From Mariprofundus ferrinatatus (GTDB lineage Bacteria; Pseudomonadota; Zetaproteobacteria; Mariprofundales; Mariprofundaceae), in NCBI RefSeq assembly GCF_002795825.1, contig NZ_CP018800.1, forward strand, positions 1,116,001 through 1,180,000: 64,000 bases of DNA, given 5' to 3'. Below, in pieces: positions 6,501 to 28,182 of the stretch; positions within the stretch are counted from its first letter, which is position 1; every line of letters starts with the position of its first letter. Below the pieces are notes generated by a model. The model was not told the origin of the DNA, did no database searches, and saw nothing but the letters and a program-made list of their open reading frames with translations. The translations under genes and the position numbers were made by a program.

Positions 6501-7592
6501 GTCTGCGTTCTCCGCATGGCCACAGGCCATGCATGAGAACGATGCCTGATCGGCGCGGTTCCCTTTGTCGGTGAACCCACAGGCCGAGCATTTCCGTGAC
6601 GTATTGCGCGGGTCGATCAGGATCACCTGTCCACCGCGCCACTGCTGCTTGTACTCCAACTGCCGTCCGAACTCGAACCAACCCATATCGAGTATGGATC
6701 GGTTGAGCCCGGCTTTCTGCCGGACGTTGGAGCCGGGCTCATCAGCTGAGCCTTTTGCAGATGCCGTCATATTGCGTGTACGCAACTCCTCAAGGCACAC
6801 GATCGCGTGGTTTTTGCTGATCGTGGTGGTTGCCTTGTGGATCGCGTCGCTTCGGGCATCCGCGATATTGATGTGCAGTCGGGTGATTCGATCCCGCTGC
6901 TTATGCCAGTTGGCAGAGAGCTTCTTCTTACGGGCAAGCTGACGCTGCAGCCTGGCCAGCTTCCGCGACAGCCGGCGAAGCGGCTTTGATCCCTCGAACG
7001 CTGAGCCATCGGACAGGGTTGCCAGATTCACCACACCGCGGTCGATTCCGACAATCGAATCGGACGGATGAACCGGCGTATCCACTTCTACCCGGCAGAG
7101 GATGGATACAAACCAGTGCTTGCCGCGCCTGGACACTGTGGCAGACCGGATCTCTCCGGCCAGAGGCCGGGACAAGCGCATGCGAACCATCCCGATCTTC
7201 GGAAGAAAGACACGGGCTCCATCCACCCTGATGCCTTGCGGAAACCGGAACGAATCGTTCAATCCTTTCCGCTTAAATCGAGGCATTCGCTTACCAGGTT
7301 GTTTTTTATCGAAGGCATCAGCGAATGCCCGGTCTAAATCCTTGAGACACTGCTGTAATACCTGCGAATGTGCCTGAGCCAGAAAGCCGAACTCATCCGA
7401 CTGTTTCCACAGCCGGAGCATACCGGCTATGTCGCGGTACCGGATGATCGGGCGCTTGTGATCCAGCCGGTAGAGATTCAGTTCCAGCGCCTTGTTCCAA
7501 ACGAAGCGACGGCAGCCCGCGAACTCGACAAACGATTGTCTTTGTTCGGGAGTCGGCTCAAGCCGGAACCGGTATGCTTTCAGTATCTCCAT
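6372..7592 (-). CDS. tnpB: TnpB RNA-guided DNA endonuclease
   Basis: About 406 residues from the preferred ATG at 7592 (an in-frame start at 7634 adds 14 atypical residues). The N-terminus MEILKAYRFRLEPTPEQ is characteristic. The RuvC-like triad looks intact: D in VGIDRGVVNLATLSDG, E in VCLEELRTRNMT and D in NADVNAARNILAAGL. A four-Cys zinc finger (CSACGFTDKGN, then CMACGH) is complete. TnpB is an RNA-guided nuclease that promotes retention of its transposon. No TnpA is next to it. The C-terminal coding region should overlap the omega RNA. Confidence 0.9.
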   Translation of the reverse strand: MEILKAYRFRLEPTPEQRQSFVEFAGCRRFVWNKALELNLYRLDHKRPIIRYRDIAGMLRLWKQSDEFGFLAQAHSQVLQQCLKDLDRAFADAFDKKQPGKRMPRFKRKGLNDSFRFPQGIRVDGARVFLPKIGMVRMRLSRPLAGEIRSATVSRRGKHWFVSILCRVEVDTPVHPSDSIVGIDRGVVNLATLSDGSAFEGSKPLRRLSRKLARLQRQLARKKKLSANWHKQRDRITRLHINIADARSDAIHKATTTISKNHAIVCLEELRTRNMTASAKGSADEPGSNVRQKAGLNRSILDMGWFEFGRQLEYKQQWRGGQVILIDPRNTSRKCSACGFTDKGNRADQASFSCMACGHAENADVNAARNILAAGLAATACGGIGRKAPREAGTGGAAMQPLPLAA

Positions 7593-7690
7593 GGTGTACG
7601 ATTGTACCTGCACGTGGCGGTTAATCAACCGCACGAGGCGCCTGTGATCCCCTGACTGAAGTCAGAGGTTTTACGGCGCTTGCTATAAAC

Positions 7691-7732: not shown

Positions 7733-8095
7733 TCAATAGCCGGCGTTGGCGCAGCCGCTGCCGGATTCGGACGGCGTAAATGATTTGCCACAGCCGCACG
7801 TGGAGGCCGCATTCGGATTGCGAATGACAAACGATTCACCCTGAATGGAGCTCTGATAATCAATCTCTGCACCGTTAAGCAGATCGAGGCTTGAGCGATC
7901 CACCAGCAGTTTAACGCCGTGGTTCTCAACAATGGTATCATTATCATTGATCTGGTCGTCGAAGGTGAAACCGTACTGGAAACCGGAGCAGCCGCCACCG
8001 GATACGAATACGCGCAGGTTCAGCTCTGCATTATTCTCACGGTCCAGAAGGCCCTGTATTTTATCAGCTGCAGCTTCAGTCAGCGTTACTGTCAT
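7733..8095 (-). CDS. erpA: Iron-sulfur cluster insertion protein, ErpA type
   Basis: A-type carrier that passes Fe-S clusters to apo-enzymes in the cytoplasm. 120 residues with the family block [17 protein letters not shown] (first Cys ligand) and CGCGKSF (two further Cys). The ending adds an extra Cys-containing tail ([10 protein letters not shown]). ErpA is the best match because of [17 protein letters not shown] and the length, but IscA-type paralogues are close. GAGGTGAT lies just upstream of ATG 8095. It is a single gene with its own terminator. Confidence 0.88.
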
Positions 8096-8234
8096 TGATC
8101 ATCACCTCGTATAACTGTCGGGAAACATGGATTCTGTATACCCGAGCGAAATTATCAGGAATTTTCGGCAGATATCAAACCCATAAGAATTATTGTTTTG
8201 TTGCACATGCCCTTTCAGAGGCAACAATAGCGCC

Positions 8235-15383: not shown

Positions 15384-15503
15384 CTTTGAACTGGCTACTG
15401 TTCAAACAATCAGTCGCAAATGTCGGTTTGTATAAGGTGCATTATCGCAAGCTAGGCACTGTCGATGGACATCTCCTCCCTACTCTATTGAGTAACCAAT
15501 GTG

Positions 15504-15726
15504 TCAAATGACAAGCGCCTAGTGGACATTTTGTGTTTTTTCATTTGAAAGACAGGTGTGTCATTTGAAACATTTTCTTTTTGTCAGATGACTAACTCAT
15601 TGCTCAAATGAGAGATAATATTGACCCTGCCCTGCTTCTCTCATTTGAGAATCCATTCTTTCAAATGACATACCCGGTTTCATCTGAGCCGACTTGTGTC
15701 AAATGAACCATCGCTTTTTCAAATGA
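15504..15726. repeat. Array of ten TCANNTGA dyads with ~20-bp spacing
   Basis: Ten 8-bp dyads start at 15504, 15541, 15561, 15584, 15604, 15641, 15661, 15680, 15699 and 15719. Eight have AA or TT in the centre, one GA and one TC. Gaps between starts are 37, 20, 23, 20, 37, 20, 19, 19 and 20 bases, close to two (or nearly four) helical turns. Chance expectation is far below one in this length. The array lies between two convergent genes, past a terminator, so it is not an ordinary promoter region. Function unknown. Confidence 0.85.
15665..15708. repeat. 44-bp direct repeat, left copy
   Basis: Matches 19173-19216 at 38 of 44 positions, including the first 21 without a mismatch. It overlaps the last third of the TCANNTGA array. 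The two copies bracket 3.5 kb holding higBA, a small gene and hipBA. Confidence 0.85.
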
Positions 15727-15806
15727 ATGGCTTTTGCATTTCAAGATCAGAAATCACCATGAGGGACAGCTGGCTAGGAGCCAGGGCCAAGGGGTTGCCT
15801 GATAGC

Positions 15807-17595: not shown

Positions 17596-17913
17596 ATGAA
17601 AAAAACGGCGTTTTCAAACGACATCGTAAACACCTGTAAGCAGATGGGCCTAAACCTAAAGGATCTTCGGATTAACAGTTTCGAAGATACACAAGAAACC
17701 ATGGCAACACGGCTAGGCGTATCACTACGCACATACAGCCGTATGGAGGCTGGAGATCCAACGGTGAAAATCGGAACCTGGCTCGAGGCCGCAAAGATCA
17801 CTCGCCAAATAGATCGATGGATCTCGTTATTTACTGAAGAGAAGAGCTTGTTTGATCAGTTCGATCAGGCAACCAATAAGACCGCTAAACGAAAAAGGGT
17901 GCGAAAGACTTAA
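17596..17913 (+). CDS. hipB: HipB-type antitoxin/repressor
   Basis: 105 residues with a Cro/CI-type helix-turn-helix: DLRINSFEDTQETMATRLG then VSLRTYSRMEAGDPTVKIGT. It ends in a basic tail NKTAKRKRVRKT. HipB proteins bind DNA upstream of hipBA and sequester the HipA kinase. The stop codon overlaps the hipA ATG (TAATG), and a 17-bp inverted repeat sits just upstream. Confidence 0.85.
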   Translation: MKKTAFSNDIVNTCKQMGLNLKDLRINSFEDTQETMATRLGVSLRTYSRMEAGDPTVKIGTWLEAAKITRQIDRWISLFTEEKSLFDQFDQATNKTAKRKRVRKT

Positions 17914-19112
17914 TGGAACGAGCTCTTTATAAAGTTCGCCTGACAGGCGAGTCTGGATCCACCCTTGAGGTTGGTGACCTCGTCAGCACGGGAGAGGTGT
18001 GCGCATTTCGCTATGCAAACACATACCGGAAATTAAGTTCATCGTTTGCAATAGATCCGATCAATCTCCCCACGCAAAAAAACTCCCATGAAACAAATAA
18101 GGTCCTATTTGGCGTGTTTGAGGACTCTTTGCCTGATGGTTGGGGCAGAGCCTTGATGGGAAGGGCTTTAAACTTATCTCATGCCCAGCAGTCCCCTCAC
18201 CTTCTTCTGCAATACCTTGATCACAAAGCAATTGGAGCGATTAGCTATGAGCGGCTTGAAGGAAATCATCCTGAAGAGCGATATCAGGAGTCAATCAATT
18301 CAATTGACGAGCTTGTACAGGCAGCCACGGCGTTTGAACGAGGTGAACTACAGGACAGTGCCATGCTGCAGCGCTTATTCAGATCCGCAGGATCATCCGG
18401 TGGAGCACATCCTAAGGTAAACGTTATTGGAGAAGATGAAAGCCTTAAGATCGTAAAGTTCTCAAGTGTTCGGGACATCTATGATGTGGTCGGCTTAGAG
18501 GCTGCATGCCTTGATCTTGCTCGTATGGCAGGCATGAAAGTTCCCGAGTTTAAAGTTCTGGAGTTAAGTAAAACGAAGGTTTTGTGTCTTGACCGCTTTG
18601 ATCGAACAGAAGATGGCTGTCGGCACATGATAAGTATGCAAAGCCTACTGAATGTGACTGGATACTATCACTCCAGTTATGTACAAATGGCCGACGTTAT
18701 TCGTACGGTTTCTAGAGTGCCCGCAGATGACTTACAGGCACTATTCAAACAGATGATATTTAATGCAGTTATCGGCAACACGGATGATCATTTAAAGAAC
18801 TTCTCCCTGTACTACCGAGATGGATACTGCCTCACTCCGGCCTACGATCTGTTGCCTGATGTGAACCAAAGGGCAACTCATACCCTCTCATTTTGTAATA
18901 ACGATGTTGGCCCATATAGAAGCGAGGCGACAGGAAACCTTGCCGCCCGCTTTAAGATGGCTACTTCAACTGCTGAAAAGATTGTAGATGAGGTTGTTGA
19001 GATAGTTGCCACCAACTGGCCAGGTGTATGCTCAAACTATGGTGTGCCGGCAGATCAGATTCAGTACTTTAACTCATACATTGAGAGGCAGCGAAAAAAA
19101 CTTGAGAAGTAG
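17913..19112 (+). CDS. hipA: HipA-type serine/threonine kinase toxin
   Basis: 399 residues, usual length. The N-terminal subdomain contains FGVFEDSLPDGWGRALM, and the kinase core carries the Ser-loop-like SSGGAHPKV, LCLDRFDR, the catalytic IGNTDDHLKNFSLY and metal-binding PAYDLLP. All residues expected for activity are present. Known HipA proteins phosphorylate GltX and cause growth arrest and persistence. It is translationally coupled to hipB. Confidence 0.92.
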   Translation: MERALYKVRLTGESGSTLEVGDLVSTGEVCAFRYANTYRKLSSSFAIDPINLPTQKNSHETNKVLFGVFEDSLPDGWGRALMGRALNLSHAQQSPHLLLQYLDHKAIGAISYERLEGNHPEERYQESINSIDELVQAATAFERGELQDSAMLQRLFRSAGSSGGAHPKVNVIGEDESLKIVKFSSVRDIYDVVGLEAACLDLARMAGMKVPEFKVLELSKTKVLCLDRFDRTEDGCRHMISMQSLLNVTGYYHSSYVQMADVIRTVSRVPADDLQALFKQMIFNAVIGNTDDHLKNFSLYYRDGYCLTPAYDLLPDVNQRATHTLSFCNNDVGPYRSEATGNLAARFKMATSTAEKIVDEVVEIVATNWPGVCSNYGVPADQIQYFNSYIERQRKKLEK

Positions 19113-19172: not shown

Positions 19173-19216
19173 ATGACATACCCGGTTTCATCTATGTGGA
19201 CTTGTTTCAATTGAAC
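19173..19216. repeat. 44-bp direct repeat, right copy
   Basis: Second copy of 15665-15708 (38/44 identical). It includes one TCANNTGA dyad (TCAATTGA at 19207-19214). It lies downstream of hipA and 158 bases before the four-gene recombinase operon. Confidence 0.85.
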
Positions 19217-19359
19217 AACCCCTTCCCCAAAAGGATGACTGTCAAGGCGGGTGCCTCATTCAGAAAAAACATAGTCCCATAGCCAGTTGAAGTGCGAACT
19301 TCAGAATTCACTGCTATTGCCTCAGATTGAGATACTGCTTCAGTACACAGCATCTATTT

Positions 19360-20418
19360 CGCCGGCTAGACATAATGACCGAATCCAGCTACAATGCGGC
19401 CATGATTTCATCATCCAACAAACAAATTGAGGAAGCGATTTCAGCCATTCTGGATGGAAAGGAAAGAACCTGGAGTCAATTGGCGGCACTCATTATTGCA
19501 GTGCATGAAAGTAAATATTGGGAAGGAAAGTCTGACTCATTCAGCAAATGGCTTGATGAATTCGGCAAAGAAATTGGTTATGGAATGGCAACGCTTTGGC
19601 GATATTTTTCAGTCGGCAGGAAGTACAATAATTTAAGAAGGTCAGCAGCATTTAGGGGCCGCGAATATCCACCCCTAGAAGAGCTACAGAAACACGTTAG
19701 TGCAGAAAACTTTGAGCTTCTAGAAAAGATTTCAAGGGTTGTAGATGAAGAGGATATCTATTTAACAATGGATGAGATTCTTGCTGGTACTATCCGAAGA
19801 AAAGAACTTCGAGATCGCTGGAATGCATTTAAGCCTGCACTGGAAGGACAAACTGCTAGGGGCAACATTTCTACACCCAAGGTGGATCGAAAGAATCAAA
19901 CCCAGCTCAATGCCATAATGAAGGCGAAGATTCTAGACGCACTTAGGAAGCTAGGCCCATCCTGGCTTAATATTCAGGAGCCAATCTATTATCAATTGCT
20001 TTCTGATGTGGTGGCTGAAGGCCGAATTAAAGTAGGTGATTTCCAGAATCCCTATGAACCCACCTATTATGCGCCCGGCTTGGTTGCGCTTGTAAAAGAG
20101 ACAAAATATTCTCCCATGGTAGTTCATGGTATTGAGATATCACTGCAACTCACACCAGGAAAAATGAAGCAACTTCATGAGATGAGCAGGTACTGCAATG
20201 TTGCCTGGTTGATTATACCTGAGACCATATCTGAACTTGATCCAGATTTAATACCGGAGGGCGTTGGAGTTCTTGGATTCAAAGTGAACGGTGAATTTGT
20301 AGTTATCACTGAGCCTTCAACTGACCCTTCTCCCTCCCATATTGATCATATCTTAAAGGGCATCATTTTGAAGGGTGTTGGGGCATGAGTTTTTTTGCAC
20401 CCCACTGTCTAGCCGGCG
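19360..20418. repeat. 13-bp perfect inverted repeats flanking the first operon gene
   Basis: CGCCGGCTAGACA at 19360-19372 and TGTCTAGCCGGCG at 20406-20418. The left copy ends two bases before the ATG at 19375; the right copy follows the gene's stop by 17 bases and precedes the next gene's likely start at 20432. They may be operators for one regulator or recombination sites. Confidence 0.7.
19375..20388 (+). CDS. Four-gene operon protein 1: N-terminal helical DNA-binding-like domain plus nuclease-like C-terminus
   Basis: About 337 residues; ATG 19375 or 19402 are plausible, neither with a strong ribosome-binding site. Residues 20-90 contain a helix-turn-helix-like stretch (TWSQLAALIIAVHESKYWEG, then EIGYGMATLWRYFSVGRKYN). 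The C-terminal ~130 residues run VVHGIEISLQLTPGKMKQLH, EMSRYCNVAWLIIPE, then DLIPEGVGVLGF. This strand-helix order recalls restriction-endonuclease-like folds, but no clear D-(D/E)xK set is visible. I do not recognise the family. It is the first gene of a run of four on the plus strand and lies between 13-bp inverted repeats. Confidence 0.6.
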   Translation: MTESSYNAAMISSSNKQIEEAISAILDGKERTWSQLAALIIAVHESKYWEGKSDSFSKWLDEFGKEIGYGMATLWRYFSVGRKYNNLRRSAAFRGREYPPLEELQKHVSAENFELLEKISRVVDEEDIYLTMDEILAGTIRRKELRDRWNAFKPALEGQTARGNISTPKVDRKNQTQLNAIMKAKILDALRKLGPSWLNIQEPIYYQLLSDVVAEGRIKVGDFQNPYEPTYYAPGLVALVKETKYSPMVVHGIEISLQLTPGKMKQLHEMSRYCNVAWLIIPETISELDPDLIPEGVGVLGFKVNGEFVVITEPSTDPSPSHIDHILKGIILKGVGA

Positions 20419-20431
20419 GGACATTTTCCGC

Positions 20432-21220
20432 ATGAATGCCTTTCTTTATATTTCACCTTCATTTAAGTCTTCTGGAAAATATTGCCACATCGAGATTAAA
20501 TGTATCGATAATATTCACCTTCCAAATGGATATGAATATCCATCAGAAAAACATGAAGTGGACTGCCCCCACTTCCCTATTCTAATTCAGAGAGGCGAAG
20601 GCAAGTTCGAATGTTTGGATGATGCCTCCTATTGGGCGAGCATTACAAAGCAGTATCAGGCCACCCATTTAAGATGCTTTGTTGTCGATGATTCGAAACA
20701 TTCAGTAGTGGAAACACAGGAACTGAAAATCATGTGTGAGTTTTACATCCCAGCCACTCGGAGCTCAGTATCATGTGAAAGGTTTATTGAGGAATATTAC
20801 ACGAATCCATATTTTAAAGGGTTAATACAAAGGTTCTTCTTTCTAGGCAGAAATATGACTGACGAATGTTTTTTCAGCCTTTTGGGCGCGTGGGGTAAAA
20901 CGCTTAGGACACTAGGCCGGCGAAAAGCAAAACATGACGCTGTTACTCCCCATAAAAAAGAAGTCGAGAGTCCAGAAGCTGCTTCTCAAAAACAGTCATC
21001 ATCTGATAGTTCTGATAAAGCGCATCCAAAATCAAATGAAGAGCTGTGGAATCAATTTGCGCGTACTAAAGGCGCCCTTTGTTACGAAGAAGTCATTAAA
21101 CTTTTGAATTCAGAAGAAAAGATCAAAACATTCGACGCTCTCATTAGTGACAACCAACTTGACCAAGCTATTCAACGACTAAACAAATACATTGAAAAAT
21201 TGAGTCACAATGGAAAATAA
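20432..21220 (+). CDS. Four-gene operon protein 2, unknown
   Basis: About 262 residues from ATG 20432 (an upstream in-frame start at 20375 would overlap gene 1 and run through the inverted repeat). The N-terminal ~160 residues look globular, with Cys-containing strands (KYCHIEIKCIDNIHLPNGY, DCPHFPILIQRGEGKFECL). A charged, low-complexity linker follows (about 170-205), and the end is helical (IKLLNSEEKIKTFDALISDN, LDQAIQRLNKYIEKL). No recognised domain. It overlaps the next gene by 11 bases, suggesting coupled translation. Confidence 0.6.
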   Translation: MNAFLYISPSFKSSGKYCHIEIKCIDNIHLPNGYEYPSEKHEVDCPHFPILIQRGEGKFECLDDASYWASITKQYQATHLRCFVVDDSKHSVVETQELKIMCEFYIPATRSSVSCERFIEEYYTNPYFKGLIQRFFFLGRNMTDECFFSLLGAWGKTLRTLGRRKAKHDAVTPHKKEVESPEAASQKQSSSDSSDKAHPKSNEELWNQFARTKGALCYEEVIKLLNSEEKIKTFDALISDNQLDQAIQRLNKYIEKLSHNGK

Positions 21221-23579
21221 ATCTTTATCCAATATAGAGAGAGATCCTATCGCCACCCTACCAGATCAGGCTATGGCGGATTTAATTACGTTGATGGCTG
21301 ACAGCGCTCAGGATGATATAAGGGAATTAACTCAATTGCTTATTTTTCAAATCCCATCACCCTCAAAGTATTTATCACTTCTTTGTCAGATGTTAATTGA
21401 TATGGAAATTTATGATCCTAATCACATCTCCAAAGATCAGCTATTCTCTATCAAAAAGCACTGGGCAAGCCAAGCAGCATCGAAGGTAATCTGGAAAGAT
21501 GCGAACAACGGCGCAAAAAAGTTCCCCGCCCTATTTGGAATCCTTAAATTTCATAAAAAATGGTTACTGAAAAACAAGGATGACGCCTACGTTAGTGCAT
21601 GCAAAGTTTTCCTATCAATTTGTCAGGTTGATTTCTCGACCCCCTGTAACGGTAGGCAATACTATGAACATACATACCGAGTCCGGGATGTGCTTATTAA
21701 GATTGCCGACAAGCATCCTGAACTTCTTTCAGGTTCAATTAAATCCTCTCGCATACGCATTTTGCAGTTCATTACTGAACTTAAGCATACACCTCTATGT
21801 AAGACAATAAATGACAATGAAAAATGGGAGGTTATAGAAAGTATATTATGTGATACTAGAACTTTTGCATGTCCATTACGAGCGGATGAACCAGAATGTG
21901 AATCACTGCCAACCTTAAGCAATGATACTATAGATTCAGCTGATGCCCCCTCCTCCATGCCATTTGATGTCGAAGAAACATCTGATCCATACGACTCAGC
22001 GGAATCTGAGGCCGCGTACAAGAGAAAGACCGGAAAGGCAGGATCCAGACTCACAAAAAAAGATGATCAGCGTACACTCATGTACAAATATCAAGCACTG
22101 GGTGCACGTAATAATTTTGCAATTACAGATGTACACAGACTAACCCTGCTAGCTCTATCCCGTTTCCTTAGTGAGTTATTTGAGGATGAGGATGCCACCG
22201 AACTCGATATTGCGTATGCGTTTATTCTGCTCTCTTGCGGAGTCCCAGAAGACAGGCTGGCTGAGATGGTCTCAACTACTGAACAAATGGCATTCAAAGA
22301 GGGGCTTATTTACTTCAGATGCGACACAGAAATTTTATACGTCTCCCTCAACAATGGTCATGCCACCTGGCCTGATGCAGATGGAGGCCATGCAGATCAG
22401 TTCATGGAAATTCTTTTACCTGCAGAGGTATGCAGAGTTATTAAAAGTTCAAAGGATGAGCATCCTTTTAAAGTGATTGCCGATAAATTTGATTATCGTG
22501 CACAAGCATTCGGACAGCATCACCCAGGTCTTACCCCCACAGCACGGCGAATTAAAAGCTCCTTTCACACTGTCTTTGCAGCAGACTGTTTTAAAGGCCC
22601 TTTAGAGGCATCATTTCTGAGTGGTACGATCCCCTATCAATATGCAGCTCAAGCGCATTATTACCGGTTTGATATGGAGAAGCTCAACCAGAAATACCAA
22701 CAGGGCGTTCTCGATTTAGTAGAAAACATGATTTGGAATGGCCAAGGATCAGTCGAGTTCATGCAATACATTGCTTTGTTCCGTCAGTTCAATCAGGAAA
22801 GTTCACCCTCTGGATCCATTGGCAGCAGACTGGATGCTGATAGAGATGAATATTTTAAATTCATGGCATTCATACGAAGTGAATTCCATGATCACAACGA
22901 CAGGATTGACTGGTACAGAGGTGAACGTGAAATCCAGCACGTGTTTTTGACGCTTCAACTTCAGCATCTAAACCTTTATTTCCTGACTCAGGTCGCAACA
23001 GCCCTTCGACCGCCTGGTAAAAAAACAACGTTTTCAGCAAACGAGCATTTTGATCTGGCATATAGCGACACTAAACCTTCCACAGATTTCACTGAGATAA
23101 ATGTAGCGCCCGTGCACAAGGTCCTTAAAGCGCAAATCATGCAGTGTAGAGAGGATCTGGAAAAGCTTGAGCTATGGGCTAAGCAGAGAGGATTGATATT
23201 GAATCAAACTCGAAAATTTCATCACGATCTTGCCCTTACTTTCCGCCTTCGCAAAAATTCCAGAATGATTGTCCCCGAAAGGATGACCGGAGCAAAGGTA
23301 AGAGACATCGTTACCAAATTAACAGCCGAGAATGGTCTCAGTTTTAGCTTGCCAGTCAAAGCCAACAATCTCTTTCGCCACAAAAATGCAACCGCCCTCT
23401 ATCAGGATGTTCCTGATATTTTACTGGATGAATACATGGCACATGGGCGTGAAGGCCTCGACATGTTCAACCCTTGGTCCACCACATCGTTCACATGCTA
23501 TCCAACACTTGAGGATAAAATTGATGAACTCATTAAAGGGCTTGTCGGTAAGCCCTTAAAGGTAAACTTCCATGTTTGA
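21210..23579 (+). CDS. Four-gene operon protein 3: large, degenerate tyrosine-recombinase-like
   Basis: 789 residues. The N-terminal third is helical. Residues about 295-500 follow the order of a tyrosine-recombinase catalytic domain: a helical start with LDIAYAFILLSCGVPEDRLA (Arg in the first motif), strands LIYFRCDTEILYVSLN, then LTPTARRIKSSFHTVFA in place of HxxR, and QYAAQAHYYRFD near the expected Tyr. The HxxR His appears to be Thr and no GH motif is visible, so catalysis is doubtful. It overlaps gene 4 by eight bases. It could be a structural partner of the gene 4 recombinase. The fold call is inference from pattern only. Confidence 0.6.
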   Translation: MENKSLSNIERDPIATLPDQAMADLITLMADSAQDDIRELTQLLIFQIPSPSKYLSLLCQMLIDMEIYDPNHISKDQLFSIKKHWASQAASKVIWKDANNGAKKFPALFGILKFHKKWLLKNKDDAYVSACKVFLSICQVDFSTPCNGRQYYEHTYRVRDVLIKIADKHPELLSGSIKSSRIRILQFITELKHTPLCKTINDNEKWEVIESILCDTRTFACPLRADEPECESLPTLSNDTIDSADAPSSMPFDVEETSDPYDSAESEAAYKRKTGKAGSRLTKKDDQRTLMYKYQALGARNNFAITDVHRLTLLALSRFLSELFEDEDATELDIAYAFILLSCGVPEDRLAEMVSTTEQMAFKEGLIYFRCDTEILYVSLNNGHATWPDADGGHADQFMEILLPAEVCRVIKSSKDEHPFKVIADKFDYRAQAFGQHHPGLTPTARRIKSSFHTVFAADCFKGPLEASFLSGTIPYQYAAQAHYYRFDMEKLNQKYQQGVLDLVENMIWNGQGSVEFMQYIALFRQFNQESSPSGSIGSRLDADRDEYFKFMAFIRSEFHDHNDRIDWYRGEREIQHVFLTLQLQHLNLYFLTQVATALRPPGKKTTFSANEHFDLAYSDTKPSTDFTEINVAPVHKVLKAQIMQCREDLEKLELWAKQRGLILNQTRKFHHDLALTFRLRKNSRMIVPERMTGAKVRDIVTKLTAENGLSFSLPVKANNLFRHKNATALYQDVPDILLDEYMAHGREGLDMFNPWSTTSFTCYPTLEDKIDELIKGLVGKPLKVNFHV

Positions 23580-26040
23580 GACTAAAGCCTATGGAATCAT
23601 CAATAGTGATCCTCGTTTCTGGACGGCAAACAGAATTATATATTTAGAGGTATGCCTGCCCCACATCAACATAAACCCTTATATTGATGCATTCCGCCTT
23701 TCCGTGATCCAGAATGAAATCGCTGCTTCAAAAGAGATCAAGCACACTAAAAGAAAGGCTGACGGCTACATTCACGATGTACTGAACTGGTTGAATGAAA
23801 TGGGGCTTTCCGATGCAGCATTGCCAGCAATCCCCATAAAAAAACCGCGTAAATCCATGTTAACCAGGAAAGAAATTGAGTTCGTACATTCAGGTGCGGT
23901 TGTTAAATTGCGAAAATTCTTCTGGGACACATGGCTTGCCTCATCCATCAATGCCGGAATAGATCAAGAAATCTTGTTTCCATTTGCCGTTGCATTCTCA
24001 GCCTCCTGTGAGGCCGGATTTGGTAAACCCATCATCTACTCCATGCTTTCAGAGCTTAAGCCGACCGATCTTATGAGTAATTTCTCGTTCCGAACCAGGA
24101 TACACCCAGATGATAAGTCGGATAAATACAGCATCCTATATTTACCAACAACTACCCAGTTCATTCTCACCTCTTTTCTGCTGAAGAAGCCTAAGTGGCA
24201 ACAAGAAAAGTATTTGTTTTTAACCGATAGCAACAGCAGTAGCAAAAAAGAACGACGCAAAAAGGCGCTCAAACTTCTCAAAGATATGTATAAGGGTTTT
24301 ATTGAAGGCTTTAAGAAAGAGCATCCAGTCGTAAGTGTACCCGAGACTTGGGAGCAGTTTGGCAATGTGGCGCCATTGATTACTGTATTGAACAGGGAAA
24401 TTGGATTAGAGCCATACATTGCAACCGTACAATCTGGGTACGCTTTGCCAGTAGCTCACCCTAGAGAGCTTGCATGTGCACTAACGACGGATGAAAACAA
24501 CACATCAGGAAACAGGCGTATCAATTGGAATGGGATAGAGACTTTTAAGGCCAAGAAATCACTTTCATCTGTTGCAGTAAAGGAATTACCCGTCGAATCA
24601 ATTGATGACAATGATTGGTGCGGTAAAAGCAAGTTGGTCATTAAAGTGCTTTGTAAGAAAGTCAAAAGCACCGTAAAAGAACACCAACAAATAGCTGCAG
24701 ACGGAGTGACAGCAAAAGTAACTCAGCTTATCAATGAAGCAAAAGCAGAAGCCGATAAAATCACAGGCAATCCAAAAAGTGCACTTCACCTCGCTTTGAA
24801 CTGGATTGAAAGTAAAGCCACAGGCTCAAATCCAATTGCCGCATCAACGTTCCATGATTACCTATACCGTGTATTTTATAATGGCCTGCTAAATGACCCG
24901 GATAGTGCAAACCTTGATGAATGGGAGCCAGAAGACCACGAACTGCTACTAGAGGATATCTTATCCCGTGACTCAATTAAATCTGAGAAAACAAGGAAGT
25001 CCATTACAACCCCTTACCTTCAGGCATACAAATACGCTAACGATCATGGATACTTTAGTGACGTAAACCTTAAATATATTAAACAGGAATGGGGAGGCGG
25101 CACTCCGAGAAATGAGATCATCGGCTTAAAAGATTTTGATTCATTTATTAAAATTGTTATGGAAAAAAATGACCCTTCACACTTCATGCACATGCTGGCT
25201 GTCGTTTGTCTTTTGGCTTACTACGGATGCATGAGATCAGGTGAGATCAGCAGACTCACTCTTAAGGATCTGGATATTAGCCAAGACTTTCTCTGGATTG
25301 ATATACTGAAAGGAAAATCGGCATCTGCCCGCAGAAGAGTGCCCTACCACCTTTTAGCCCCTGAATATGCTCAGAAAATCATTTCAGATTATTACGCTTA
25401 TAGGCGAACACAGTTTCGCGATGATGCTCTCTTGAAAGGGATTGCCCTATTTGGTCCGGAGAAGAACAGGAATCGATTTACAAGAAGTGCATTGGCTGAT
25501 CAAGCCATCAGACTCTTACAATCATTCTTCGGAAAATCCTTCGCACTGCACTCCCTTCGCCATAGCGGCTGCTCATTTTTGCTTCTACGCATGTATAGCG
25601 CCAGATACCCTGCTATGACCGATTCACTAGTAGTTAGAGATCACGAAATATTTAGCCCGGAATACAGATCAAGAGCTGCATACCTTTTCTCTGGGAAATC
25701 TGTAGATGAAATACCTAATTATTGCGGTTCTTCCCTTATCAGGCTCAGCAAACTTATGGGGCACCTGGGCCAACAAACCACATTCAGGACTTATATCCAC
25801 ACCTTTCATGCCATACAGGCACATGCCATGACAAGGGTATCTGATGTTTTTGGAGATGAGGAATTAAATGGTAAAACTATTGGTACCCTACTGCCTAAAA
25901 GGAAATCCGGAACCACCCGGGCAGGAAAATACAAGGATAAAACGATAAACGCCTTGCTCGATGTTACTTATGAGGGAATTCGTCAAAGCAAGAGTCTCAG
26001 AAAACTCTTTGAAGGAATGGTCCTGTCTACGAAACCATAA
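23572..26040 (+). CDS. Four-gene operon protein 4: large tyrosine recombinase
   Basis: 822 residues, far longer than XerC/D. The C-terminal ~300 residues are a tyrosine recombinase domain with apparently complete catalytic residues: R in YYGCMRSGEISRL, HxxR in LHSLRHSGCSF, H in KLMGHLGQQTTF and Y in RTYIHTF. A helical core-binding-like segment lies before it (about 390-510). The N-terminal ~370 residues are unusual, with ILYLPTTTQFILTSFLLKKP resembling a second, decayed recombinase half. Start ATG 23572 overlaps the gene 3 stop. The XRE gene converges with it seven bases downstream. Likely mobilises the island or acts on sites within it. Confidence 0.8.
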   Translation: MFETKAYGIINSDPRFWTANRIIYLEVCLPHININPYIDAFRLSVIQNEIAASKEIKHTKRKADGYIHDVLNWLNEMGLSDAALPAIPIKKPRKSMLTRKEIEFVHSGAVVKLRKFFWDTWLASSINAGIDQEILFPFAVAFSASCEAGFGKPIIYSMLSELKPTDLMSNFSFRTRIHPDDKSDKYSILYLPTTTQFILTSFLLKKPKWQQEKYLFLTDSNSSSKKERRKKALKLLKDMYKGFIEGFKKEHPVVSVPETWEQFGNVAPLITVLNREIGLEPYIATVQSGYALPVAHPRELACALTTDENNTSGNRRINWNGIETFKAKKSLSSVAVKELPVESIDDNDWCGKSKLVIKVLCKKVKSTVKEHQQIAADGVTAKVTQLINEAKAEADKITGNPKSALHLALNWIESKATGSNPIAASTFHDYLYRVFYNGLLNDPDSANLDEWEPEDHELLLEDILSRDSIKSEKTRKSITTPYLQAYKYANDHGYFSDVNLKYIKQEWGGGTPRNEIIGLKDFDSFIKIVMEKNDPSHFMHMLAVVCLLAYYGCMRSGEISRLTLKDLDISQDFLWIDILKGKSASARRRVPYHLLAPEYAQKIISDYYAYRRTQFRDDALLKGIALFGPEKNRNRFTRSALADQAIRLLQSFFGKSFALHSLRHSGCSFLLLRMYSARYPAMTDSLVVRDHEIFSPEYRSRAAYLFSGKSVDEIPNYCGSSLIRLSKLMGHLGQQTTFRTYIHTFHAIQAHAMTRVSDVFGDEELNGKTIGTLLPKRKSGTTRAGKYKDKTINALLDVTYEGIRQSKSLRKLFEGMVLSTKP

Positions 26041-26046
26041 GCTTAT

Positions 26047-26295
26047 CTACTTTCGTTGATGGTCCAGGTGAAGGATTACACCTGGATTCACTAGTGGATC
26101 GCCGGTGAATTCAATGCCTGTATTTTCTAGTGCTTCCTTCACCATCATTAAGCTTTGAATCTTTGCAGCAGGAATCCCTTCTTGCAGTTCCCACCTTCTC
26201 AGCGTCGCAGGTCCTATCCCACTTCTTTCCGCGAGATCTAATGCAGTCCAACCTAACAGTGCTCTTGCAGCCTTAATTTGCGATGAGGATATCAA
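26047..26295 (-). CDS. XRE-family transcriptional regulator
   Basis: 82 residues. The helix-turn-helix is SQIKAARALLGWTALDLAER followed by SGIGPATLRRWELQEGIPA, and the end (GIEFTGDPLVNPGVILHL) is the usual extension of this small XRE family often seen on mobile elements. It is divergent from the OB/HD gene with about 60 bases between start codons and converges with the large recombinase gene, so it may control the OB/HD-recombinase pair. Confidence 0.85.
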   Translation of the reverse strand: MISSSQIKAARALLGWTALDLAERSGIGPATLRRWELQEGIPAAKIQSLMMVKEALENTGIEFTGDPLVNPGVILHLDHQRK

Positions 26296-26355
26296 CCATT
26301 GACTCCCAACGATATATATTATATCATGTATGCAATCGTATTGGAGAATATTAAC

Positions 26356-27312
26356 ATGCAGAGCAGGATTATGGAAAATAAAGTTGAAGGAGTCTATTCG
26401 GTAATAGAATACAAAATGCGGGCATCAAATAATCAGCATGACTACCTTAGACTAATACTAGAAAACGCCCATGAACGCCTAATCGCAAACTGCTGGATGA
26501 GTAACTATTGTGGCCCCTTGAGATTTAACACCAATGAAGTTGTAAGGATTACCGGAAAGAAAAATAAGTTGAGTTCCTCCACTGACACCGTAGATGTCTA
26601 TTCTGCAGATGTAGTTACTCCTACAGGAAAAGATGCCCTTATAACGATTCCTGAGTCCTTAGTTGGCTGCCCCGAAGACATTCATAAACTAATTGAGCTT
26701 GTAGACTCTATCTGTTCAGAAGAATTGAAAGATTTTGTATATGAAGTATTTTCAAGTAGAGAGTTCGCCCTGCCATTTTGTACGCTAGCTGCCACTCATA
26801 ATCCCCAACACTCAATAGAAGGCGGGTTATTAAAACATAGTGTTGAATGTGCAGAAATAGTCGCTGGCTGCCCATACTTGAGAATCATTGACCGGGACAT
26901 TGCCACGGTCGCCGCCCTATTTCATGACGCTGGAAAAATACTGCCAAGGAAGATTGGGGGAAATGCTTCCCACATAAAGATGATTGATACGCTTAAGGTG
27001 TTGCACTGGTCACTATTAGGCTTGGATCATGACTGTCCAAATTTCGGCAAGGCATTGCGTGATATTTGGAGTTTGAATAAACCCACTAGGCATTGGGAAT
27101 ATGAGGAAAAGATGTCTATCGCAACAGTGGTTCAAATGGCGGATCGAATTAGTACTAATCTCAATATGGAAAAACAGCCTTTTTCAGTAGAAGAAACTTG
27201 GAGGAACCATGTAAGACACCCCATAACCGACCAACGGTTTTGGCGGCCATCAGAGGCGGCTATACCAAATAGCTTCTCTGAATCACTGAGCAACTCGGCT
27301 CAGTGGAGGTAA
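26356..27312 (+). CDS. OB-fold and HD-domain protein, YhaM-like
   Basis: About 318 residues from ATG 26356, preceded by GGAG; an in-frame start at 26299 has none. The N-terminal part (YLRLILENAHERLIANCW, then NEVVRITGKKN) follows an OB-fold pattern. The C-terminal half is an HD phosphohydrolase domain with GGLLKHSVECAE and VAALFHDAGKILP as His and HD metal ligands, and MADRIS near the last Asp. YhaM-type proteins join these two domains and act as 3'-5' exoribonucleases. Here it sits three bases ahead of an XerC-like recombinase gene, an unusual pairing. Confidence 0.72.
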   Translation: MQSRIMENKVEGVYSVIEYKMRASNNQHDYLRLILENAHERLIANCWMSNYCGPLRFNTNEVVRITGKKNKLSSSTDTVDVYSADVVTPTGKDALITIPESLVGCPEDIHKLIELVDSICSEELKDFVYEVFSSREFALPFCTLAATHNPQHSIEGGLLKHSVECAEIVAGCPYLRIIDRDIATVAALFHDAGKILPRKIGGNASHIKMIDTLKVLHWSLLGLDHDCPNFGKALRDIWSLNKPTRHWEYEEKMSIATVVQMADRISTNLNMEKQPFSVEETWRNHVRHPITDQRFWRPSEAAIPNSFSESLSNSAQWR

Positions 27313-27315
27313 ATT

Positions 27316-28182
27316 ATGATTGATGAAATTATAAAGAAGTTTGATGGCGCATTTGCGGAGAATACGATCCGGGCATACAGGTCCGACTTCATCCAGTTTG
27401 AGCTGTGGTGCAGGAGTAAGGGAAAGGAGCCAATCCCAACGGATGCTGAAACACTTGCTCAGTACGTCGATGAAATGTCGCTCACATTAAAGAGTGCCAC
27501 CATACGCAGGCGAATCGCAAGCCTCTGCTCCATATTTAAGCTCTCAAGGAATCCTGACCCAACGAATGACCCTGAGGTCATACTCGCTTTGAAAAGGATG
27601 CACAGGAGGATTGGAAGGGCTCAGGAGCAGGCTGCTCCCCTTACCCGAGATATTCTTGAACAGATGTTAGCCACCTGTGATGGCAGCCTTATCGGCCAGC
27701 GCAACCGCGTCATGCTTCTGCTTGGCTATGAAACGATGAGAAGGCGCTCAGAGATTTGCGACTTTAAATTTGAGGACGTTACTATCCTGCCAAACAAACA
27801 GACCGCGATTCGGCTCAACTTCTCCAAAACAGATCAGTACGGCGAAGGAAAGGTAATACCAATTAGCAGAGAGCTTTATGACACGATCTTAAACTGGAAA
27901 GAAAGCATTGCTGCAACGGATGGTTACATCCTGAGACGCATCAACCGGCATGGACAGGTTGGAGATCACCTGTCCCCCTCATCAATCAGCAAACTCTTGA
28001 AGGAAATTCAGCAGCAAGCATTTCAACACATTGAGCGGGAACTGAGCGGCCACTCATTCCGTGTGGGAGCTGCACTCGATCTTCTTAACGATGGATATGG
28101 TCTAGAGAAGATTATGCTGAGAGGAGGTTGGCGTACCGAATCAACCGCACTGAGGTACTTGAGGACATGGTCAGAGATCTAA
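27316..28182 (+). CDS. XerC-like tyrosine recombinase
   Basis: 288 residues. SAM-like core-binding domain at about 1-100 (ENTIRAYRSDFIQFELWC), then a catalytic domain: R in YETMRRRSEICDF, HSFR in LSGHSFRVGAAL, W in GGWRTESTALRYL where many enzymes have His, and Tyr in ALRYL. A Trp at that position occurs in active relatives. It follows the OB/HD gene by three bases and ends 15 bases before the convergent rfbB stop, so the island's right border must be in or beside 28183-28197. Confidence 0.88.
   Translation: MIDEIIKKFDGAFAENTIRAYRSDFIQFELWCRSKGKEPIPTDAETLAQYVDEMSLTLKSATIRRRIASLCSIFKLSRNPDPTNDPEVILALKRMHRRIGRAQEQAAPLTRDILEQMLATCDGSLIGQRNRVMLLLGYETMRRRSEICDFKFEDVTILPNKQTAIRLNFSKTDQYGEGKVIPISRELYDTILNWKESIAATDGYILRRINRHGQVGDHLSPSSISKLLKEIQQQAFQHIERELSGHSFRVGAALDLLNDGYGLEKIMLRGGWRTESTALRYLRTWSEI

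Follow-up and report, generated by a model that had tools for sequence, protein, structure and literature searches.

A Conserved Gene Trio of Zetaproteobacteria and Gammaproteobacteria as the Probable Recombination Core of an Integrative Element

Three consecutive genes of Mariprofundus ferrinatatus, encoding a small protein (P2), a protein with a probable tyrosine recombinase (TR) fold (P3) and a large TR (P4), probably form the recombination core of an integrative element, a reading to which we give a probability of roughly 0.6. The element would occupy about 20.4–28.18 kb of the window (the 64,000-nucleotide stretch analysed here, part of a closed 2.3-Mb chromosome), in which only its right end has been mapped. 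In its favour are how the genes are ordered and conserved, the catalytic residues, the company of integrases and the right end; against it, neither an att site of the trio nor an empty site was found, the type of partner integrase varies, and some trios (L077 and L178) show no integrase in the sequence covered. A role of the trio in mobility is likely, and the data are pointing to a conserved, undescribed lineage of multi-recombinase mobile elements.

Gene Layout of the Locus

The features of the locus, in window coordinates, are the following.

19360–19372, minus strand: left copy of a perfect 13-bp inverted repeat, TGTCTAGCCGGCG, flanking P1
19375–20388, plus strand: P1, 337 aa, HTH-like plus PD-(D/E)xK/MmcB-like; optional companion of the trio
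20406–20418, plus strand: right copy of the 13-bp inverted repeat, between P1 and P2
20432–21220, plus strand: P2, 262 aa, small, first in the trio; no known family
21210–23579, plus strand: P3, 789 aa, probable TR-fold protein with two modules
23572–26040, plus strand: P4, 822 aa, large TR with a complete catalytic set
26047–26295, minus strand: small Xre-type HTH protein, 82 aa, conserved in G011
26299–27312, plus strand: HD-domain protein, 337 aa, with a weak TraI_2/MobH-like match; also found beside integrases of other trio islands
27316–28182, plus strand: XerC/XerD-like ordinary TR, 288 aa, candidate partner integrase

An earlier note on this DNA had described a coupled operon of four head-to-tail genes, and the list of open reading frames agrees: P2 and P3 overlap by 11 bases, P3 and P4 by 8, and a gap of 43 bases separates P1 from P2. 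The unit itself has to be redrawn, however, since most trio loci lack P1, which also has solitary relatives; the true unit is the three-gene core P2-P3-P4 (20432–26040), with P1 a separate, often co-travelling gene, and the conserved set reaches beyond the four genes to the HD-domain gene and the XerC-like integrase downstream (26299–28182). The P2 frame starts mechanically at GTG 20375, and the true start is most likely ATG 20432, because the homologue in the same-genus genome G011 then aligns from its first residues; by homology, P1 probably starts at 19402. As the note had proposed, P1 and P2 belong to no recognised family (P1–P3 matched none in Pfam, NCBIfam or PADLOC), and no single named family covers all four proteins.

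P1 homologues were found in 5 of 150 relatives, just upstream of the trio in G000, G021, G058 and G069 and beside an IS21-type gene in G030, and the solitary relatives lie on Enterococcus plasmids. The HTH-like and endonuclease-like segments ascribed to P1 find only weak counterparts, both below cut-off, in its Ghiorsea homologue (DUF3102, E=0.013; MmcB-like, E=0.008). The 13-bp inverted repeats enclose P1 and not the trio; an equally long repeat arose in 4 of 2000 random placements, and the exact 12-mer occurs only twice in the genome. GCTAGAC/GTCTAGC-type sites lie on both sides of P1 in the window and in L031, and similar ones in L066:

L031, about 7094–7106 and 8095–8110; L066, about 1424–1436 and 2471–2485: P1-flanking inverted GCTAGAC/(G)TCTAGC sites

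These sites may be an operator pair or the ends of a P1 unit. In G021 (L082, 3278–8883), restriction-type and helicase-like genes, assigned by eye, stand directly upstream of P1-P2-P3.

Distribution of the Trio

At every locus where the contig lets this be seen, P4 is the immediate neighbour of P3 and their order is unchanged, and the pairs occur in both Zeta- and Gammaproteobacteria. G011 has P2-P3-P4-HTH-HD-XerC-like in the order of the window, with identities of 36% for P2, 47% for P3, 66% for P4, 58% for the HTH protein, 75% for the HD protein and 96% for the XerC-like integrase, and with an AbiE-like gene pair at the place of P1. The P3-P4 pair is also present in two Ghiorsea-type genomes and one MAG contig, accompanied by P2 wherever the contig extends far enough (that of L021 ends without P2), and in Halomonas and Vreelandella, the latter with a 257-aa gene at the place of P2 and a XerC-like gene further on. 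More divergent sets were found in Zetaproteobacteria (L025, L026, L027, L028, L031 and L126). This order of P2-P3-P4, kept in many genomes, is not due to chance.

A 13-member P3 profile matched in 25 of 398 Pseudomonadota genomes, its weakest matches (about 540 aa) looking like single integrases, and a narrower five-member profile in 2 of 369 gammaproteobacterial genomes. Compared as profiles, the P3 sets are linked, at 98% for the two main zetaproteobacterial sets and 34–97% for the others, and so are most P4 sets, mostly at >97% (the weakest pairing, with Acinetobacter, reaches 60%); the same comparison detected no relation between the P2 families of different lineages. Among plasmids, one P4 relative occurs in Acinetobacter and one in Sphingobium. 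Since scans of viral contigs with P4, divergent P4, P3 and P1 found no relative, the trio is not an obvious phage module.

Ghiorsea-type trio loci also carry a 507-aa serine recombinase and tRNA-Glu. The recombinase gene (L021, 5607–7130; L022, 13849–15372; L039, 6527–8050) is downstream of the trio in all three, and its 3′ end overlaps tRNA-Glu(ttc) on the opposite strand. Directly upstream of the trio in L022, at about 6900–7600, there is a partly N-masked array of near-identical short repeats.

P4, an Intact Large Recombinase

P4 bears the full R-HxxR-H-Y set that the earlier note had read in it, and its catalytic set is complete with R555, K582, H660xxR663, H731 and Y741. Among 22 homologues, several of which are only 10–25% identical to the window protein, R555, R663, H731 and Y741 are invariant, while K582 and H660 seldom vary. 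Residues 543–671 match Pfam Phage_integrase (E=1e-8), the PHROG integrase match has E=7e-22, and the fold match of the P4 model is XerA (E=5e-5); the AlphaFold models of P3 and P4 were built from five-sequence alignments and are weak, with mean pLDDT of 43 and 53, respectively. By its R-K-HxxR-H-Y set and its fold P4 is a member of the TR superfamily, and it would be expected to cleave and rejoin DNA. The N-terminal half of P4 was also tried as a second TR module and did not rise above decoys (3.4 bits vs. 8.4), and profile comparison gave no support for an internal duplication in either P3 or P4.

P3, a Probable Recombinase Fold With an Incomplete Catalytic Set

Sequence comparison suggests that P3 is a TR-fold protein made of a middle module (about 300–500), containing Tyr484, and a C-terminal module (about 570–765) with R600/K622/N720xxR723/H745. 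Tyr484, Arg600, Lys622 and His745 are invariant in all 18 P3 sequences, the last five of which were fetched after the residue pattern had been described; position 720 is Asn, in place of the HxxR His, in 16 of them, and position 723 is Arg in 16 and Lys in two. The claim that P3 lacks both the HxxR His and the GH motif thus stands for the former, replaced by Asn720, but not for the GH histidine, which is His745 in 18/18; Gly alone of this motif is replaced, by Ala, in the window protein. The residue missing from the C module is the Tyr: among the 18 sequences no conserved Tyr follows His745, three having one at +11 (that of P4 is at +10). The middle module retains Tyr484 without other catalytic residues at aligned positions.

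Profiles of the two modules were compared with 36 TRs and 756 reversed or shuffled decoys. The best TR scores of the middle and C modules were 15.4 and 15.9 bits vs. 5.3 and 5.2 for the best decoys, and the top match of both was the window genome's own XerD-like protein, with Tyr484 aligned to the catalytic Tyr of XerD, Arg723-His724 on the HxxR-H stretch and His745 on GH. The recombinase fold order proposed for P3 in the earlier note is in keeping with these matches and with the order of the motifs. The poor P3 model (pLDDT 43) matches mostly TRs in the PDB, not significantly (best E 0.27). Matches of the middle module to designed TIM barrels were short and were judged an artefact.

An incomplete catalytic set could mean that P3 is a recombinase in decay and that the operon is a remnant being lost, but the 18 homologues have open frames, keep the same residues and lose the same ones, and because the pattern is conserved this reading is contradicted and very improbable. 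The description of one intact and one degenerate recombinase in an operon conceptually like trio-type elements is borne out.

The invariant Arg-Lys-His of P3 would be compatible with a role in binding phosphate at att DNA and, on a bolder view, with a split site that includes Tyr484. It is conceivable, but rather doubtful, that P3, far from being a dead subunit, is a recombinase whose active site is split over two tandem TR-like modules; equally doubtful is the assignment in which the C module would provide the Arg-Lys-Arg-His pocket and the middle module Tyr484, and we would put no higher the idea that the modules act together, within or between subunits, like the trans cleavage by Flp. If true, P3 with its split site would, together with P4, make a two-protein recombinase, one partner being a tandem split enzyme, and the residue pattern of P3, with the pocket in one module and the Tyr in the other, provides a precise, mutable prediction.

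Partner Integrases, Islands and Element Ends

The trio usually stands beside an ordinary integrase or shares an island with it, and the HD gene recurs with them, the integrase type differing between loci: XerC-like in the window and G011, with a relative in Vreelandella; an arm-binding phage-type integrase in G015, G069, G071 and G003; a large serine recombinase in Ghiorsea. In the gammaproteobacterial loci L175, L176 and L179, P3-P4 occur alongside a small protein, and the integrase there, also of the arm-binding phage type, is 51–52% identical to that of G015. Eight of the ten integrases at least 45% identical to the G015 one share an island with P3/P4 or with a P4 remnant (the latter in G030); in G136 the trio is about 45 kb away on the same contig, and the tenth integrase is G071 C66. 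A compact arrangement is found in G003 (L126), where HD-small-integrase-HTH-P4-P3-P2 share a strand and have other genes on either side.

Hydrogenase islands have the integrase at one end and the trio at the other, about 25 kb apart, a spacing that counts against the core reading. In G061 and G058 a NiFe-hydrogenase cluster is framed by an integrase and a trio or pair. The NiFe-hydrogenase clusters of three zetaproteobacterial genomes are flanked on one side by a phage-type integrase and on the other by a large-recombinase module or remnant (L078, 3176–4631, with L026, 7361–12689, in G061; L159 with L027 in G058; L158 with L029 in G030), and the modules framing the three differ in type. The Ghiorsea bivora cluster had been reported as one that “is surrounded by an integrase and a recombinase” (PMC6501319). 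Because it is found at the ends of NiFe-hydrogenase islands of iron-oxidising Zetaproteobacteria, the family may have a part in how hydrogen metabolism spreads.

The right end of the window element is the stop codon of the XerC-like integrase (28182): three genomes of the genus (G000, G011 and G018) have the sequence up to the last codons of this gene in common and diverge from the stop codon on. Neither the left end nor a repeat matching the right end was found in repeat searches of the window. Several trios lie just 3′ of tRNA-Met, which was considered as their att site and rejected: islands with other integrases and without the trio use the same tRNA, so that this site points to phage-type integrases.

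Several further repeats were observed. Repeated TGTGCCCA motifs lie between tRNA-Met and P4 (L025, 5844–6110; L026, 12660–12870; L012/L080; L032), as do the inverted sequences GCCCGATGGTCA...TGACCATCGGGC, spaced by about 45 bp, an arrangement conserved in four genomes. In the window, a 68-nt direct repeat (78%; 15665–15732 and 19173–19240) bounds a toxin-antitoxin-like stretch containing HipB/HipA (17596–19112), and 15483–15730, which has no long ORFs, carries a cluster of direct and inverted TCAAATGA-containing repeats.

The main rival explanation is that the trio is cargo in islands that the adjacent ordinary integrase moves, and that it serves another purpose, be it defence, stabilisation, DNA inversion or immunity to related elements. 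Partner integrases of three types, flanks rich in HipA, AbiE, restriction and STAND-type genes, the lack of a trio-specific att site among the results and the fact that a phage-type integrase is generally enough to move an island are all consistent with it. We consider it a possible but distinctly less probable account, as P4 homologues keep the full recombinase active site, PADLOC gave no match, and one integrase subfamily (at about 50% identity) and a small protein family (at about 30% identity) accompany the trio across two classes, a company that exceeds what would be expected for random cargo.

If P2-P3-P4 are instead the recombination core, the element would also encode the HTH protein, the HD protein and the ordinary XerC-like integrase. 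P3 would bind the same att DNA as P4, as a second, non-equivalent subunit, with P2 as a putative helper, and P4 and P3 would assemble with the ordinary integrase into a mixed synapse at the element ends, with cleavage possible for only some of the subunits. Because only a part of the subunits could cleave, such a synapse might, as a tentative extension by analogy, favour single-strand exchange and yield a circular copy that replication then resolves. A circular copy of this kind is reported for SEs and suspected for GInts, in which joining attL to attR requires more than one recombinase, a defective one included, and often leaves no empty site (PMC10214605; PMC9345347; PMC5385486).

Comparison With Known Systems

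That the trio is a divergent member of a named class (SE, GInt, gamma-mobile-trio, Tn554 or BIM) appears improbable. The gamma-mobile-trio (GmtX/Y/Z) is a mobile trio with a TR and defence-type cargo; it is set apart here by the GmtY model and layout alone, as model NF040693 (441 positions) matched none of P1–P4 at E<=1 and, elsewhere in the genome, only two places far below cut-off. NF040694, tried as a model of this class, proved an unrelated family.

SEs (intA-tfp-intB-srap) are the closest in parts, which is the argument for a named class: an ordinary TR, a large RHRY TR, a TR-fold protein whose motif is not complete, and a small helper, encoded by head-to-tail coupled genes at one element end (PMC10214605; PMC9345347). 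The proteins corresponding to P3 and P4 have, however, 581 and 720 aa vs. 789 and 822 aa in the trio, whose ordinary integrase lies outside the operon, sometimes on the other strand, whereas the SE intA is within it with srap; the trio is also accompanied by the HD gene and occurs in Zetaproteobacteria too. Comparison with SE-6945 (L073) gave hhalign probabilities of at most about 2% for P3-Tfp, P4-IntB and P2-Srap and no hmmsearch hit, and its IntA matches P4 weakly and generically, as expected for any TR. SE ends are imperfect terminal inverted repeats with a 6-bp spacer footprint, and SEs recombine attL with attR with a strand bias and without an empty site.

GInts (ginABCD; PMC5385486) share with the trio a multi-recombinase operon with one defective TR (GinC), a small fourth protein and cargo islands, but have three TR-fold genes plus ginD, whereas the operon here has two (P1 and P2 matched no TR family in a family search), a distinction drawn from layout and description and not from sequence; moreover, GinC lacks the first Arg, which the P3 C module keeps. 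Tn554 (TnpA, TnpB, TnpC) likewise includes an abnormally long TR (611–828 aa in the family, together with a short TR; PMC3414803), but has no pseudo-recombinase, and its short TR adjoins the long one, a separation by gene order only. RIT elements (PMC3414803) also have adjacent recombinase genes in islands, but three TRs, each with the catalytic motif, and BIM, compared by description only, has one TR and an unrelated Famint45 protein (PMC3414803). GInt, RIT and Tn554 as defined are ruled out because their gene layout differs. SEs and GInts raise the question of why several tyrosine recombinases, one of them defective, are employed, and an SE-like set without detectable sequence relation to SEs suggests that mobile elements have arrived at a defective partner repeatedly rather than by accident.
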